Positions 23,208 to 29,499 of a stretch of DNA of 64,000 nucleotides are shown here, piece by piece. Position 1 is the first letter of the stretch; the number at the start of each line of letters is the position of its first letter. A program made the position numbers and the translations under genes. Origin of the DNA: Ignavibacteriales bacterium. GTDB taxonomy: Bacteria > Bacteroidota > Ignavibacteria > Ignavibacteriales > SURF-24. The notes beneath the pieces were generated by a model. The model saw only the letters and a program-made list of their open reading frames with translations. It was not told where the DNA came from and searched no databases. The stretch is from the NCBI GenBank assembly GCA_026390815.1, contig JAPLFH010000007.1, positions 186,001 to 250,000 on the forward strand, in the 5' to 3' direction.

Positions 23208-24353
23208 ATGCGTATCATTTTTCATCTTGATCTAGATGCTTTCTTTGTTTCCGTTGAACGGGTACTCGAACCATCGCTTAACGGCAAACCTGTTATCGTT
23301 GGAGGTGATCCGCTGGGAAGAGGAGTTGTTACTGCCTGCTCATACGAGGCACGTAAATACGGTCTACATTCAGCTATGCCGATTCGTCAGGCGTATAAAC
23401 TCTGTCCACACGGAATTTATCTCCACGGGCATTTTAAGGAATATGAGAATTACTCGAAAGCAGTGGAAAATATTTTGAAGAAGTACGCCCCGATTTTGCA
23501 ACAAGCATCGATAGATGAGTTTTATATGGATTTTACCGGCTGCGAAAAAATTTACGGTAATTTTTTTCTTTTCGCATCATTTCTGCAAAAGGAAATATGG
23601 GATCAACTTTTACTTCCCAGTTCAATTGGAATTGGAAGCAATAAAACAATTGCCAAGATTGCTTCCGATTGTATGAAGCCACTAGGAATTACTTACGTTC
23701 TTCCTGGAATGGAAAAAGATTTTCTTTGTCCAATGCCAGTAGAAACTATTCCTGGAGTTGGCAAAGTAACATTGAAGAGTCTCCGCGAAAAAGGATTTAG
23801 AACAATTGGAGAGGTAGCCAAAACAACGCTGGAATATTTTTCTACAGCGTATGGAAAAAGTGGGATTGATCTGTGGGAAAAAGCAAACGGACATGGAACA
23901 GATTTTCTAAGCATCTCTCACGAAAGAAAAAGTATTTCCAAAGAAACAACTTTTGATGAAGATGTTGTTAGTAAAATAGTAATCGAGCAAACCTTATTTA
24001 AACTTATTGGAACAGTTTGTCAGACTCTACGCGATGAAAACTGGCAGGCTGCAACTATTAGCATCAAACTCCGCTACTCCGATTTTGTTACAATTACAAG
24101 AGCAAAGACAATAAGACCAACAGATGATGATAAACTAATATATGAAACCACACTGGATTTATTCCATAAAGCTTTTACAAGGAGGATTGCGGTTCGGCTT
24201 ATCGGAGTTCACTTAAGTAATCTTACTGATTTTGCTGAACAGGAAATTCTTTTTGAGGATGAAGAAATTAAAAGGAAAAAAATGTTGAAGGCAATTAATA
24301 CGCTTAGAGCCAAATATGGATTCAAGGCAGTACAGGTTGGAACAGCTACATAG
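23208..24353 (+). CDS. dinB: DNA polymerase IV (Y-family translesion polymerase)
   Basis: 381 residues. Metal-binding Asp8 (FHLDLDAFF) and the catalytic pair Asp103-Glu104 (SIDEFYMD) are at the positions known from E. coli Pol IV. SYEARKYGLHSAMPIRQAYKLCP, the GIGSNKTIAKIASD helix, the IPGVGKVT helix-hairpin-helix and the C-terminal little-finger domain (about 240-350) are present. The C-terminus ends FKAVQVGTAT without an evident beta-clamp motif. It performs error-prone bypass synthesis. About 136 bp at its 3' end recur as a decayed copy at 27700-27835. Confidence 0.95.
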   Translation: MRIIFHLDLDAFFVSVERVLEPSLNGKPVIVGGDPLGRGVVTACSYEARKYGLHSAMPIRQAYKLCPHGIYLHGHFKEYENYSKAVENILKKYAPILQQASIDEFYMDFTGCEKIYGNFFLFASFLQKEIWDQLLLPSSIGIGSNKTIAKIASDCMKPLGITYVLPGMEKDFLCPMPVETIPGVGKVTLKSLREKGFRTIGEVAKTTLEYFSTAYGKSGIDLWEKANGHGTDFLSISHERKSISKETTFDEDVVSKIVIEQTLFKLIGTVCQTLRDENWQAATISIKLRYSDFVTITRAKTIRPTDDDKLIYETTLDLFHKAFTRRIAVRLIGVHLSNLTDFAEQEILFEDEEIKRKKMLKAINTLRAKYGFKAVQVGTAT

Positions 24354-24521: not shown

Positions 24522-27500
24522 ATGAAATTCATTACTCTAATAATTTTCATTGCTTTTTCTTCTCAAGTTCAATTCTATGCACAACAACCATATAGTTCAA
24601 TATCAGGTTATATTTTTGATAAATCGTCTATGAAGGAATTGTCAAATGTAAACGTTTTTATTTCAGGTACTGATATTGGTATAACCACTGATAATAAAGG
24701 TTATTATGAAATACAGACGATTCCAACTGGTAGGCAGAAAATTGTTGTATCTATGATGGGATACGAAACATTTACAACATTTATTGATTTTAGGGAAAAC
24801 GATAATGTTAAATATAATTTTGAAATAACACCACGAATATATGCAATAGAACCAATCGAGATATCCGCTTCGAAACCTGATGAGTGGTTAAAGAATTTGG
24901 AACGGTTTAAAGAAATATTTTTCGCTAATTCAGAGTTTTCTAAAGAATGTAAGATTACAAATGAATCAGCCATAAATTTAAAGTGGATTGATGAAGATAT
25001 ATTGAAAGGTAATAGTGATAGCTTATTAATAATAAACAATGCACTAGGATACAAAGTATTTATTTTGCTTAAAAATTTTACATTTAATAAGAAAACAAAA
25101 GAATACAACTATGCAATCGATACAAAATTTGTTGAAATGGATACAACAGAAAAAGAAATAAAGGCTAATTGGTTTAACAATAGAAAAAATGCATACGAAG
25201 GTTCATTAAAGCATTTTTTAAAATCGTTAGTTGATTCAACCATTGGTAAGGAAGGATTTATAATTTCTATTGAGAGCACTGATAGACCTAACCATTCATT
25301 TAGAGGAATTTCGGATATACATAAGATTATACAAAAAGGTGTGTTGTCCAATGAAAAAATACTGTGTTATAAAGGATATATAAAAGTAAGGCATCAGTTC
25401 GAAGAATCATTTATAAAACTGAAACAGCAGGAAGTTACTTTAGATGAATATGGTAATACTCAAGAGGAATATCCGTTTGAAGTTAGAGGAAATTTCCTGG
25501 ATAGAGGTGTAGCCGAATTACTCCCTAAATATTATAATCCTTCAGAGCGAATAAAAACAGATCAGATAGTTAAAGAAAACCAAAAAACTATAAAGAGCGA
25601 ATCAATAATTCGGAGATCTTTAGAAAATACAAATGCAAATAAAAGCAATATAAAAAATGATTCTGAGGTAAGAGAATCGCTTAAGGATTCAGTTTTGAAA
25701 AATCCAACAGATATAAATCTTCGATTGCTGTACGCAACATCGTTAAAGGGATGTTGTTTAACAAGCGCTGTAAATGAATATCTGGAAATTATAAAAATTG
25801 ATAGCAGTTGTTCAGAAGCATGGTTTAATTTAGGAAAAATAAGGGCAGAAGAGTATAGCGATTTAAAGAGATCAATAAAAAAAATTCAGTTAGATGATGA
25901 AATAGGTTTAGCATTAAAGTTAGAGGATTTAGTATCCCAAATTATTCCGCGGGAAAAAATGGAAATTGAAATTGTACCTCTATCTGAATTTACTATACTA
26001 AATTTTAGAGAACTAAGTAAAGAAAAGTTTGATGAAGCAGAAGTAAGTTTAAAAAAAGCAGTGCAATATGATTCTTTAAAAGTAGAAAATTATCTGGAAT
26101 TATGTTTTCTATATGAAGATGCTGGTGTATATAAAAAGGGTATAGAGGTCTTGGAAAATTTACTAAAAATATATCCTGATATTAAAGATGGGCATCTGTA
26201 TTTAGGATTATTAAAATATAAAACTCGTGATGTAAAGGCAGCACATAAAGAATACAATAAAGCGTTAGAACTTATGAGCGAAGAAGAAAGAAACGATTTT
26301 ATAATTAATTCTGTAAAAAAGTTAGTTGAACCAATTTTTGAAGGTAAAATAGATTCACTTGATAACACAGAGCTTAAAGAAGTTCTAAATAAATTTTGGA
26401 TTTCAGAAGACCCATTATATTTTACAGATTACAATGAACGTTTAATAGAACATTATTCAAGAGTAGTATATGCAAATCTTCGTTTCAGTTATATACAGAG
26501 AAATATACCGGGATGGATGACAGAACGAGGAGAAATATTATTAAGATATGGTGAGCCTCTTTATAAAGTACGCTATCGCCCTCAAATTTCCCTAAAAGGA
26601 TCGCCGGACGGTTTTTTTTCGTCCGAATATTTATTACCGACAGAAGTGTGGTATTATGAAGGGATGGTTTTTAGTTTTACAGATACATTTATGTCTGGTG
26701 AATTTGCATTAACAGTACCATCAAATGGAGATTACAAATCACAATTTGAGATTGATTCAAAATCATTTGCTGCAACACTTAGGAAAAAGAAATTTGAAGA
26801 GTATAAACCGCTTTTTGCATCAAGTTTCAATCTGAGTGTTAGTACGTCTCAATTCAAAACGCTCGAGGATAAAAGTTCAAAGCTAACAGATGTTTATGTT
26901 AACTTTGCTGTGCCTGCATTTGATAAAAAATTTGAAAACCAAAGTATAAAATATAGATGGGGATTATTCTGTTTTGATAGTCTATACAATAAAACTATAG
27001 AAATTAAGGATTCACTTACTATTTCGGATCCTCTCCGGCAAATAAGTATATCGGGTTCTGAGAGTATTTATGTAAACATTAAAAATCTAAAGTTAAAACC
27101 TTCAACAGAAAATATGGCTCTTGAAGTAATAAGATCCTTAGATGAAGCTGTTTCAACAAACCGGGGTCATCTAAAGATAAAGGATTATAATTCAGATAGT
27201 TTGTTAATAAGTGATTTAATTCTTAGTCCCTCCGTAATATTTGGAACAAAGAGTGAGACAGCTATAAATAGAAACGGAATATGGGTATTGCCGAATCCGT
27301 CCGGAATATTTTCGAACAAAGAAAAGGTTCATATATACTTTGAAGTATACAATCTTAAATTAGATCGTAAAGGGTATAACAATTTTGAACAAGAAATAAA
27401 AATTGTCAGGAAGGATGATAATACATCCTTTGTTGGAAAAATATTCGGAGGTGTTATTGAGTTGTTGAAAGGGGGAAAAAGTATAAATAATTCTATTAAG

Positions 27501-27659
27501 ACAAAACAAAATAGAACCCAGGAAAGGAATATACAGGTGTGTTTTCAATTGGATTTAAGTTCTCTTGAAAAGGGCAACTATAATATTGAATTAACTATGA
27601 TGGACAATAATTCTAACCAAGAAGTTGCTACCGAAACTACTTTTACAATAAAAAACTAA
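24522..27659 (+). CDS. Exported GWxTD-domain protein with N-terminal CarboxypepD_reg-like and TPR regions
   Basis: 1045 residues with a signal peptide (about 1-20). Residues 25-110 form a carboxypeptidase-regulatory-like beta-sandwich (ISGYIFDKSSMKELSNVNVF, GITTDNKGYYEI, GRQKIVVSMMGYE), the plug-adjacent domain of many outer-membrane proteins. The middle (about 395-600) has TPR-like helices (DPTD-type repeats, YLELCFLYEDAGVYKKGIEVLENLLKIYPD reads as one). Around residue 664 comes PGWMTERGEILLRYGEP, the signature of the GWxTD domain. The beta-rich C-terminal part is unassigned. It probably sits in the periplasm or outer membrane. ATA and AGA codons look more frequent than in dinB, suggesting recent arrival. 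It is bracketed by dinB and a dinB 3'-end copy. Confidence 0.8.
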   Translation: MKFITLIIFIAFSSQVQFYAQQPYSSISGYIFDKSSMKELSNVNVFISGTDIGITTDNKGYYEIQTIPTGRQKIVVSMMGYETFTTFIDFRENDNVKYNFEITPRIYAIEPIEISASKPDEWLKNLERFKEIFFANSEFSKECKITNESAINLKWIDEDILKGNSDSLLIINNALGYKVFILLKNFTFNKKTKEYNYAIDTKFVEMDTTEKEIKANWFNNRKNAYEGSLKHFLKSLVDSTIGKEGFIISIESTDRPNHSFRGISDIHKIIQKGVLSNEKILCYKGYIKVRHQFEESFIKLKQQEVTLDEYGNTQEEYPFEVRGNFLDRGVAELLPKYYNPSERIKTDQIVKENQKTIKSESIIRRSLENTNANKSNIKNDSEVRESLKDSVLKNPTDINLRLLYATSLKGCCLTSAVNEYLEIIKIDSSCSEAWFNLGKIRAEEYSDLKRSIKKIQLDDEIGLALKLEDLVSQIIPREKMEIEIVPLSEFTILNFRELSKEKFDEAEVSLKKAVQYDSLKVENYLELCFLYEDAGVYKKGIEVLENLLKIYPDIKDGHLYLGLLKYKTRDVKAAHKEYNKALELMSEEERNDFIINSVKKLVEPIFEGKIDSLDNTELKEVLNKFWISEDPLYFTDYNERLIEHYSRVVYANLRFSYIQRNIPGWMTERGEILLRYGEPLYKVRYRPQISLKGSPDGFFSSEYLLPTEVWYYEGMVFSFTDTFMSGEFALTVPSNGDYKSQFEIDSKSFAATLRKKKFEEYKPLFASSFNLSVSTSQFKTLEDKSSKLTDVYVNFAVPAFDKKFENQSIKYRWGLFCFDSLYNKTIEIKDSLTISDPLRQISISGSESIYVNIKNLKLKPSTENMALEVIRSLDEAVSTNRGHLKIKDYNSDSLLISDLILSPSVIFGTKSETAINRNGIWVLPNPSGIFSNKEKVHIYFEVYNLKLDRKGYNNFEQEIKIVRKDDNTSFVGKIFGGVIELLKGGKSINNSIKTKQNRTQERNIQVCFQLDLSSLEKGNYNIELTMMDNNSNQEVATETTFTIKN

Positions 27660-27699
27660 TATCAACAGTAACTGTAAAATTGAAGATTATTTCAATTTT

Positions 27700-27835
27700 A
27701 CTTAAGAAATCTTAATGATTTTGCTGCACAGGAAATTCTTTTTGAAGATGAATAAATTAAAAGGAAAAAAATGTTGAAGGCAATTAATACGCTTAGAGCC
27801 AAATATGGATTCTAGTCAGTACAGGTTGAAATAGT
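27700..27835 (+). pseudogene. Decayed copy of the dinB 3' end
   Basis: The sequence matches 24211-24346 of dinB with about nine mismatches over 136 bp by hand alignment. The copy has in-frame stops (GAA to TAA within GATGAATAAATT, and TCTAG) and no start, so it is not expressed. Together with dinB it brackets the GWxTD gene. Confidence 0.9.
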
Positions 27836-27851
27836 TTAAAGGAATATTTAT

Positions 27852-27882
27852 TTGATATTTCATAAAGATGAGGTTATATTTG
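27852..27882 (+). promoter_or_regulatory. Bacteroidota-type promoter of the trp leader
   Basis: TTG (27852-27854) and TATATTTG (27875-27882) are separated by 20 bp, a close match to TTG-N19/20-TAnnTTTG. The expected start of transcription is about 27888-27890, directly at the leader-peptide ATG (27889), so the leader may be translated without a 5' untranslated region. Confidence 0.6.
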
Positions 27883-27888
27883 CTTCAG

Positions 27889-27975
27889 ATGAAAAAATCA
27901 ATTTATATATTTATTAACGGAAATAATAATTGGGTTTGGTGGTGGAACATCCGTGTTTCTCTATCTGGCGCATGA
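27889..27975 (+). CDS. trpL: Trp leader peptide (attenuation control of trpB)
   Basis: A 28-codon reading frame, too short for usual gene calls. Codons 15-19 read Trp-Val-Trp-Trp-Trp (27931-27945), four Trp codons in five, in a phylum where Trp is rare. It ends in TGA at 27973-27975 inside the first arm of an alternative RNA pairing and is followed by two terminator-like hairpins and then trpB. This is the classic arrangement of a ribosome-stalling attenuator that senses charged tRNA-Trp. Start ATG at 27889; no Shine-Dalgarno at normal spacing, which fits a leaderless start from the promoter at 27852. The function is inferred from architecture. Confidence 0.85.
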   Translation: MKKSIYIFINGNNNWVWWWNIRVSLSGA

Positions 27976-28006
27976 TAGATCCAAAATTATATTAAGCCGT
28001 AGATAG
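27961..28006 (+). promoter_or_regulatory. Antiterminator pairing (segments 2 and 3) of the trp attenuator
   Basis: Segment 2, CTATCTGGC (27961-27969), can pair with segment 3, GCC-GT-AGATAG (27996-28006), 9 bp with a two-base bulge. Segment 2 overlaps the end of the leader peptide, about 16 bases after the Trp codons: a ribosome stalled there leaves it free, and one that reaches the stop codon covers it. Segment 3 is also the 5' arm of terminator 1, so the structures exclude each other. Found by eye. Confidence 0.7.
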
Positions 28007-28030
28007 TGAAACAACTATCTGCGGCTTTTT
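27995..28030 (+). terminator. Attenuator terminator 1
   Basis: AGCCGTAGATAGT pairs with ACTATCTGCGGCT (28014-28026), 13 bp with one G-U, around loop GAAACA, followed by TTTTTAATTTT. The 5' arm is segment 3 of the leader and is captured by segment 2 when the ribosome stalls at the Trp codons. Confidence 0.8.
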
Positions 28031-28036
28031 AATTTT

Positions 28037-28066
28037 AAAGCCGTGGTGTCAATCACGGCTTTTTTT
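28037..28066 (+). terminator. Attenuator terminator 2
   Basis: AAAGCCGTG (28037-28045) pairs with CACGGCTTT (28054-28062), 9 bp, then a run of T. Its 5' arm can instead pair with the 3' arm of terminator 1: GCGGCTTT (28021-28028) with AAAGCCGT (28037-28044), 8 bp with one G-U and an eight-base loop. If segment 3 is taken up by segment 2, both terminators would therefore be disrupted together. Confidence 0.8.
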
Positions 28067-28134
28067 ATGCACATAATAAAGGAAATAGTATTTAACATTA
28101 ACTAATTTTATAACAACCTTTTAGGAGACAAAAA

Positions 28135-29499
28135 ATGCGTGATAACAAATTCACTCTTCATGTTAAAGAGATGCCCGATCACTGGTATAATATTTTACCA
28201 GATCTACCAGTACCACTGGCACCACCAATTCATCCGGGAACTAAACAACCGATAAACCCGGAAGATCTTTCGGCAATTTTTCCAATGGAATTAATTAAAC
28301 AAGAAATGAGTCCGGAAAGATTTATTGAAATTCCCGATGAAGTTTTAGATATTTATTCACTTAGTCGACCTACTCCCGTAATCCGTGCATACAGGCTGGA
28401 AAAGTATCTTGACACACCTGCAAAAATCTATTTCAAATACGAAGGAGCAAATTCCTCTGGCAGTCATAAACTCAATACTTCAATTGCACAGGCTTATTAC
28501 AATAAAAAAGCAGGGATTAAAAAATTAGTAACTGAAACCGGGGCTGGGCAATGGGGCAGCGCTCTTTCGATGGCTTGTAATCATTTCGATTTGGGATGCC
28601 AGGTGTTTATGGTTAAAGTAAGTTTTCAACAAAAACCTTACAGAAAATCATTGATGCAGCTTTATGGTGCAGAAGTAATTCCAAGCCCTTCTGTATTAAC
28701 AAATGCAGGAAGAAATGTATTAGCGCAATTTCCGGATTCACCAGGTTCGCTTGGAATTGCAATAAGCGAGGCAGTTGAAATAGCTGGACAGAGAGAGGAT
28801 ACAAATTATTCACTTGGAAGCGTTCTTAATCATGTTCTCTTACATCAAACGATAATTGGTGAGGAAGCAAAATTACAGATGGAAATGGCAGATGATTATC
28901 CTGATGTTGTAATTGGATGTGTAGGCGGCGGAAGTAATTTTGGTGGAATAAGTTTTTCATTTTTAAGAGATAAGATTAATGGCAACAAAAAGAATTTGGA
29001 AGTAATAGCAGTTGAACCTTCATCTTGTCCAACACTTACTAAAGGAAAATTTGCATATGATTTTGGTGATGAAGCTGGTTTTACACCACTATTAAAAATG
29101 TACACACTTGGGCATAATTTCGTTCCCGCAAAAATTCACGCCGGAGGATTACGCTATCACGGCGCATCACCAATCGTTTCTCACTTATTAGATCTTGGAT
29201 TGATTAAAGCTGAATCTTATTACCAGAAAGAAGTTTTTGAAGCCGCAAAAATATTTGCACAGGAAGAAGGAATTGTTCCTGCACCAGAAAGTGCACATGC
29301 GCTTAAATCAGCCATTGAATATGCAAAGAGATGTAAAGAAAGTGGTGATAAAAAAACTATCCTGTTTAATATGTCGGGTCACGGACTACTGGATCTTGGC
29401 GCTTACGATGCATTCTTAAGAAATGATTTGGAAGATCATGAAATGACCGATGAAGAGATTGCAGGAAATTTGAAAGATTTGCCGCAAGTTGCTGTCTAA
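28135..29499 (+). CDS. trpB: Tryptophan synthase beta subunit, TrpB2 type
   Basis: 454 residues, the length of TrpB2 proteins (about 450, against about 400 for TrpB1). PLP Lys112 lies in [10 protein letters not shown]; the phosphate loop is [11 protein letters not shown] (261-271); [10 protein letters not shown] is the substrate-carboxylate loop. TrpB2 condenses indole with serine and is often encoded apart from trpA, as here. AGGAG at 28123-28127 sets the ATG. Upstream lies a Trp leader and two terminators, showing that the gene is under tryptophan-responsive attenuation; this also supports a real biosynthetic or indole-salvage role. No other trp gene is in the window. Confidence 0.95.

Follow-up and report, generated by a model that had tools for sequence, protein, structure and literature searches.

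Ribosome-mediated tryptophan attenuation has been described mainly in Proteobacteria and Actinobacteria. The locus studied here raises the question of how a trpB2 gene that forms a single-gene unit is controlled in a deep lineage related to Bacteroidota. It lies within a stretch of 64,000 nucleotides from an Ignavibacteriales bacterium (contig JAPLFH010000007.1), referred to below as the window. A short leader frame and a series of hairpins, occupying positions 27889–28066, stand directly 5′ of trpB2 (28135–29499, forward strand, as for all features below), which is the putative regulated gene. The gene encodes a TrpB-like PLP enzyme that scored 672 bits against TIGR01415 (cutoff 519) and 733 bits against NF009057 (cutoff 366) in a profile search, and its product is 85% identical to that of Ignavibacteriales SURF_24, the closest named relative. 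A Shine-Dalgarno-like AGGAG is located at 28123–28127.

Leader, promoter and segment layout

The leader ORF (27889–27975) consists of 28 codons, from an ATG at 27889 to a TGA at 27973–27975, and specifies the product MKKSIYIFINGNNNWVWWWNIRVSLSGA followed by the stop. It contains the candidate control codons Trp-Val-Trp-Trp-Trp at 27931–27945, with Trp codons at 27931–27933, 27937–27939, 27940–27942 and 27943–27945. The leader has no obvious Shine-Dalgarno sequence and is probably leaderless. A Bacteroidota-type promoter (27851–27882) precedes it, comprising a −33-like TTTG at 27851–27854 and TATATTTG at 27875–27882, which matches TAnnTTTG, the Bacteroidota −7 element, and ends 6 nt 5′ of the leader start codon.

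Such promoters sit 4–8 nt ahead of the start codon. A perfect TAnnTTTG was present a few nucleotides 5′ of the start in 17 of 47 leaders and at 0 background positions, and 13 further leaders matched five of its six positions; the automatic leader parsing misplaced the start codons of L118, L119, L122 and L149. Several leaders of family f5 have TATAGT- or TATACT-type −10 elements near the start codon. This spacing supports a leader mRNA that would itself be leaderless, as the first-pass annotation of this DNA had proposed. In L020 (position 2709–2781 and onward) and L200, a tRNA-Lys gene takes the place of the promoter region and ends a few nucleotides 5′ of the start codon, and the trpB2 leader ORF of L207 likewise begins a few nucleotides past a tRNA-Lys gene; tRNA 3′ processing could be the source of a nearly leaderless leader mRNA in these three.

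Downstream of the promoter, six segments can be folded into alternative pairs. Segment 1 (27938–27949) overlaps the last three Trp codons of the leader and pairs with 27954–27965 of segment 2, completing a canonical 1:2 hairpin that is indicated by folding and by paired changes. Segment 2, which had been placed at 27961–27969, is present, but that extent was too short; folding and 2:3 covariation carry it back to 27954 (27954–27969). Segment 3 (27996–28013) has either segment 2 as its partner, forming the antiterminator, or segment 4 (28014–28028), forming terminator 1 (27994–28033; stem 27994–28027 and a U-rich tract). The 2:3 pairing in the window joins 27954–27967 with 28000–28013 through 13 bp plus one U-U; GGC at 27967–27969 has an alternative partner in GCC at 27996–27998. 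Segment 4 can also pair, through 28019–28028, with segment 5 (28037–28047), the putative relay and a near-copy of segment 3, which alternatively pairs with segment 6 in terminator 2 (28037–28066; stem 28037–28062 and a U tract). Both hairpins are perfect terminator-like stems, and those at 27994–28027 (14 bp) and 28037–28062 (11 bp) were the top two terminator-like sites in a 20-kb scan. The folding energies in the window are −9.8 kcal/mol for 1:2, −18.5 for 2:3, −21.6 for 3:4, −13.4 for 4:5 and −15.7 for 5:6. Sequence reading, folding and the terminator scan thus agreed with the coordinates first given for the leader frame and the two terminators.

In our judgement this region is quite probably a ribosome-mediated Trp attenuator that relays to a second lock, a prediction in which we infer that ribosomes stall, that the RNA switches, that the relay is kinetic, that the ribosome site can be locked and in which direction the leader responds to Trp. 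Transcription would begin at the leader start codon or no more than a few bases from it. When Trp-tRNA is ample, the ribosome would reach the stop codon and cover segment 2, so that 3:4 would form and stop transcription, and the free segment 5 would make 5:6 as a further stop. Under Trp-tRNA shortage, a ribosome stalled at the Trp codons would sit over segment 1 and 2:3 would form; the freed segment 4 could then capture the emerging segment 5, and this 4:5 pairing would delay or prevent terminator 2, allowing trpB2 to be transcribed. The second lock would be wholly or partly translational in Melioribacteraceae and some other families, where segment 5 can pair with the trpB2 ribosome-binding site.

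Conservation of the predicted first switch across Ignavibacteria

The gene trpB2 is present in 115 of the 391 genomes of the class, and leaders with WWW, WWWW, WxWWW or WWxW were found 5′ of it across the order and in families f5, f14 and f19. A covariance model built from an alignment of 32 leaders (A1) gave 38 strong sites, one per genome, in the 164 genomes of the order, where strong denotes 65 bits or more and the next best match scored 42. All but one of these sites (37/38) lie immediately 5′ of trpB2, the remaining one (G360) being at a contig end, with the proviso that the leaders compared here are kin and their counts are not independent observations. Six of the genomes with a strong site were outside the training set, and tblastn placed trpB2 downstream of each. 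Of the weak matches found elsewhere than at trpB2, which scored 42 bits or less, four loci were inspected; none showed a Trp leader at the indicated place, and they resemble generic AAGCCG...CGGCUU-type terminators or appear unrelated.

Within the 32-leader alignment, pairs that changed on both sides exceeded the shuffled expectation in each of the first three pairings: 30 cells versus 12.4 for 1:2, 6 pairs and 33 cells versus 3.2 and 12.0 for 2:3, and 10 cells versus 5.2 for 3:4. Shifting the partners by 1–3 columns abolished the pairing in every case, and the Trp codons are kept in register with 1:2. The first-pass annotation had staked its attenuator on the conservation of the Trp codons and of 2:3 and 4:5 in relatives. 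The comparison did not refute it; Trp runs are kept and 2:3 is retained with covariation.

Three sequence features of a classical attenuator are found at this leader, for which readthrough is predicted to rise when Trp is scarce. A short ORF carries runs of codons for the amino acid of the pathway, 1:2, 2:3 and 3:4 are mutually exclusive with 3:4 as an intrinsic terminator, and a ribosome at the control codons would free segment 2 and at the stop codon would cover it, with the exception of the last Trp codon. In a simple co-transcriptional folding heuristic, a stall at Trp15, 17 or 18 left segment 2 free and prevented terminator 1 at every barrier setting tried, whereas terminator 1 still formed when the ribosome was halted at the final Trp codon, and it also formed with the ribosome at the stop codon.

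Departures from this layout were also observed. Several sister lineages carry terminator 1 alone, and in the TrpB2 tree these terminator-1-only leaders occur in at least two separate places. In L015 (Melioribacter sp. SKW195) the leader and its Trp codons are lost and the terminator loop is enlarged, with trpB2 retained. In other phyla, Trp-rich short ORFs 5′ of trpB2 were seen in L030 (Caldithrix), L034 (KSB1) and L031 (a Spirochaetes MAG), where terminator-like hairpins follow the ORF, and in L026, L054, L063, L072 and L081 (mostly Neomarinimicrobiota MAGs); the motifs in these phyla include WRWWW, WRWFWWW, WWW, WHWSWW and WWTWH.

Segment 5 and the proposed second lock

The relay was examined through the conservation of 4:5. 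Covariation of this pairing was weak in the main alignment, with three pairs changed on both sides, a value reached in 123 of 500 shuffles, as expected if the bases of segment 4 must match both segments 3 and 5 while segment 5 must also match segment 6. An unbiased search of the region 3′ of terminator 1 for any sequence able to pair with segment 4, scored against dinucleotide shuffles in 56 leaders, reached p<0.05 in 36 of them and p<0.01 in 29, counting as negatives L016 and L111, which the terminator-1 finder had mis-parsed. When segments were swapped among 16 diverse leaders, 4:5 came to −10.7 kcal/mol compared to −14.6 kcal/mol for the leaders' own 4:5, a difference matched in 0 of 20,000 permutations.

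Unrelated versions of the sequence, the GCCGUG type and the GUGGGAAC type, both have a segment 5 that nearly copies segment 3; the latter type belongs to families f5 and f14, in which the core is the different GUGGGAAC:GUUCCCAC. The core is altered in step in all four arms (segments 3–6) in L201, from GCCGU/ACGGC to GCCGC/GCGGC, and in L225, to ACCGC/GCGGU. The Stygiobacter-type leaders L011, L016, L017 and L212 have lost terminator 2 together with segment 6, and their segment 5, GCCGUGAAC, is still fully complementary to segment 4. Comparison thus finds both 4:5 and 5:6 conserved, the lockstep changes and the cross-family recurrence being the best support for the 4:5 pairing that had been proposed.

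Energetically, the balance between 4:5 and 5:6 varies. The margin in the window is about 2 kcal/mol in favour of 5:6, and relief of terminator 2 must therefore be kinetic; the folding heuristic suppressed terminator 2 at the lowest barrier setting only and gave mixed results for terminator 2 in relatives. By contrast, 4:5 is the thermodynamically stronger pairing in Melioribacteraceae (−18.9 versus −11.2 kcal/mol for 5:6 in L010). The proposal that a stalled ribosome removes both terminators is supported by the heuristic for terminator 1; relief of terminator 2 is energetically marginal and may be partial in the window species.

In relatives, segment 5 can apparently lock the ribosome-binding site of trpB2 in place of terminator 2, a feature that the first-pass annotation had missed. 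Leaders of the Melioribacteraceae-type clade have GCCGUGAACC, or a near match, as segment 5 and GGAGGUUCAC-AUG at the trpB2 ribosome-binding site. The pairing between the two (5:7) amounts to −10 to −17 kcal/mol, with a shuffle p<=0.06 in all parsed members. GGUUCA is present at the ribosome-binding site in 14 of the 14 listed Melioribacteraceae-type leaders that have segment 5, whereas GGUUAA or GGUUAU stands there in the four sisters that have terminator 1 only and lack segment 5. In the TrpB2 tree the Melioribacteraceae-type leaders form one clade, nested among leaders that mostly have a strong terminator 2. Pairing to the ribosome-binding site is also seen in some f5 and f24 leaders (L104, L116 and L120). 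A 5:7 swap test across diverse leaders was not significant (2468/20000), so a 5:7 lock is not supported for leaders in general, but it holds for the Melioribacteraceae-type leaders and these three; in the window species, segment 5 has no notable pairing with AGGAG (5:7 −4.4 kcal/mol, p 0.87). These comparisons suggest that the second lock is exchangeable and appears as a terminator, a translational block, both or none. We lean, by a modest measure, towards the wider proposal that class-wide modular Trp attenuators would use segment 5 to relay one stalling decision to an exchangeable second lock, from a leader mRNA that is leaderless.

The relay has to be weighed against a classical single switch, in which terminator 2 would be a leaky back-up copied from terminator 1 and 4:5 a by-product of the shared stem. 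Such a reading would account for the advantage of 5:6 in the window, for the weak covariation of 4:5 taken alone, for the sisters that do without segment 5 and for the GCCG...CGGC stems of other terminators (each genome has 10 to 52 matches to this pattern over both strands, many of them double-counted). However, a second terminator without relief would defeat the switch, and the complementarity of 4:5 outlasts the loss of 5:6 in the four Stygiobacter-type leaders, reaches past the terminator-2 part in L152 and Melioribacteraceae (GUUCAC:GUGAAC), and is found again in a second family of sequences. We therefore regard the single switch as unlikely.

Two further readings concern the sensor itself. 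The leader is Trp-rich, and in a TnaC-like mechanism its nascent peptide would arrest the ribosome on free tryptophan, so that high rather than low tryptophan would switch trpB2. The Ignavibacteria trpB2 leaders of L128, L131, L133, L155 and L179, which end in WWP, WPW or WWPP with no evident terminator and possibly reflect a different, translational or arrest-type control, would suit such a mechanism. Nevertheless, runs of three to four Trp codons in an otherwise variable peptide are a mark of codon-dependent stalling, and the regulated gene encodes a Trp synthase subunit rather than tryptophanase, which makes arrest very improbable here. It is harder still to credit a leader, for example the Rfam trpB motif (RF04312), whose hairpins bind a ligand or protein and whose ORF is incidental: this motif aligns with 27938–28036 at 29.8 bits, half its gathering score of 59, it exceeds the cut-off in 0 of 149 class genomes, and the Trp codons are conserved in register with 1:2. 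RF04312, which was described from Firmicutes and Fusobacteria (PMC11109978), was rejected as a different element.

Known attenuators and genome context

At gathering score, Rfam matched only two tRNAs in the window, with no Trp_leader or T-box match, and Trp_leader (RF00513) was not listed in the leader region even at E<=10. The enteric trp attenuator shares with the trpB2 leader the Trp-codon peptide, the 1:2, 2:3 and 3:4 logic and a stop codon that lets the terminating ribosome cover segment 2; it differs in having one terminator and an ordinary Shine-Dalgarno leader and in controlling trpEDCBA. The enteric his attenuator has six segments, an AB/CD/EF versus BC/DE relay and one terminator (PMC10989985). 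It resembles the trpB2 leader in setting 1:2, 3:4 and 5:6 against 2:3 and 4:5, which is a functional analogy only: EF is its sole terminator and its codons are for His, whereas the trpB2 leader has two U-tract terminators (3:4 and 5:6) and Trp codons, and in relatives the last lock is swapped for one at the ribosome-binding site.

Two-level control is also known from the Bacillus subtilis trp leader, where a terminator is combined with sequestration of the trpE Shine-Dalgarno sequence in readthrough RNA (PMC12288461), but there the driver is Trp-bound TRAP, not a translating ribosome. A near-leaderless start occurs in the ilvBNC attenuator of Corynebacterium glutamicum, whose leader peptide start codon is 1 nt from the RNA start (PMC11857589); it differs in responding to branched-chain amino acids and in its single terminator. 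Actinobacterial trp attenuators, including that of trpB2A in C. diphtheriae (PMC1262725), likewise place a classical Trp leader 5′ of a trpB copy, but have a single terminator and a GC-rich, unrelated sequence, with no relay described.

In the open-licence papers searched, we found no Trp attenuator from Bacteroidota or Ignavibacteria, tandem-terminator attenuator or trpB2 leader of this arrangement. Within those papers the two-stage cascade has no described counterpart as a whole, as had been supposed, although the enteric his attenuator offers an earlier example of the relay topology. On sequence grounds we would class the trpB2 leader as a variant form of ribosome-mediated attenuation. Ribosome-mediated Trp attenuation would thereby extend to a deep Bacteroidota-related lineage with leaderless leaders. 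The comparison shows how one switch may gain a second lock, which has apparently been exchanged between transcription and translation in evolution. If this is true, it would constitute purely ribosome-driven dual control of transcription and translation of a biosynthetic gene.

A complete trpEGDCF-aroF(DAHP synthase)-trpB1-trpA cluster is also present in this genome, with gene names taken from reading the ORFs. Its trpE operon is preceded by an independent Trp leader of its own, MKRNKTYYFNFTINFWWFTINTLT (L192, 18794 down to 18653 on the reverse strand of G000:C7), which has a single terminator; the double lock is therefore specific to trpB2 in this genome. This arrangement points to TrpB2 as a Trp-starvation gene under its own, tighter control beside a complete and plainly attenuated trp operon.

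Upstream of the trpB2 leader, positions 27697–27834 of the window repeat, at 93% identity, the 3′ end of the DNA polymerase IV gene (24208–24345). The fragment lies between the ORF of a GWxTD-domain protein (24522–27659) and the leader, which suggests that an insertion or duplication placed this ORF between dinB and trpB2.
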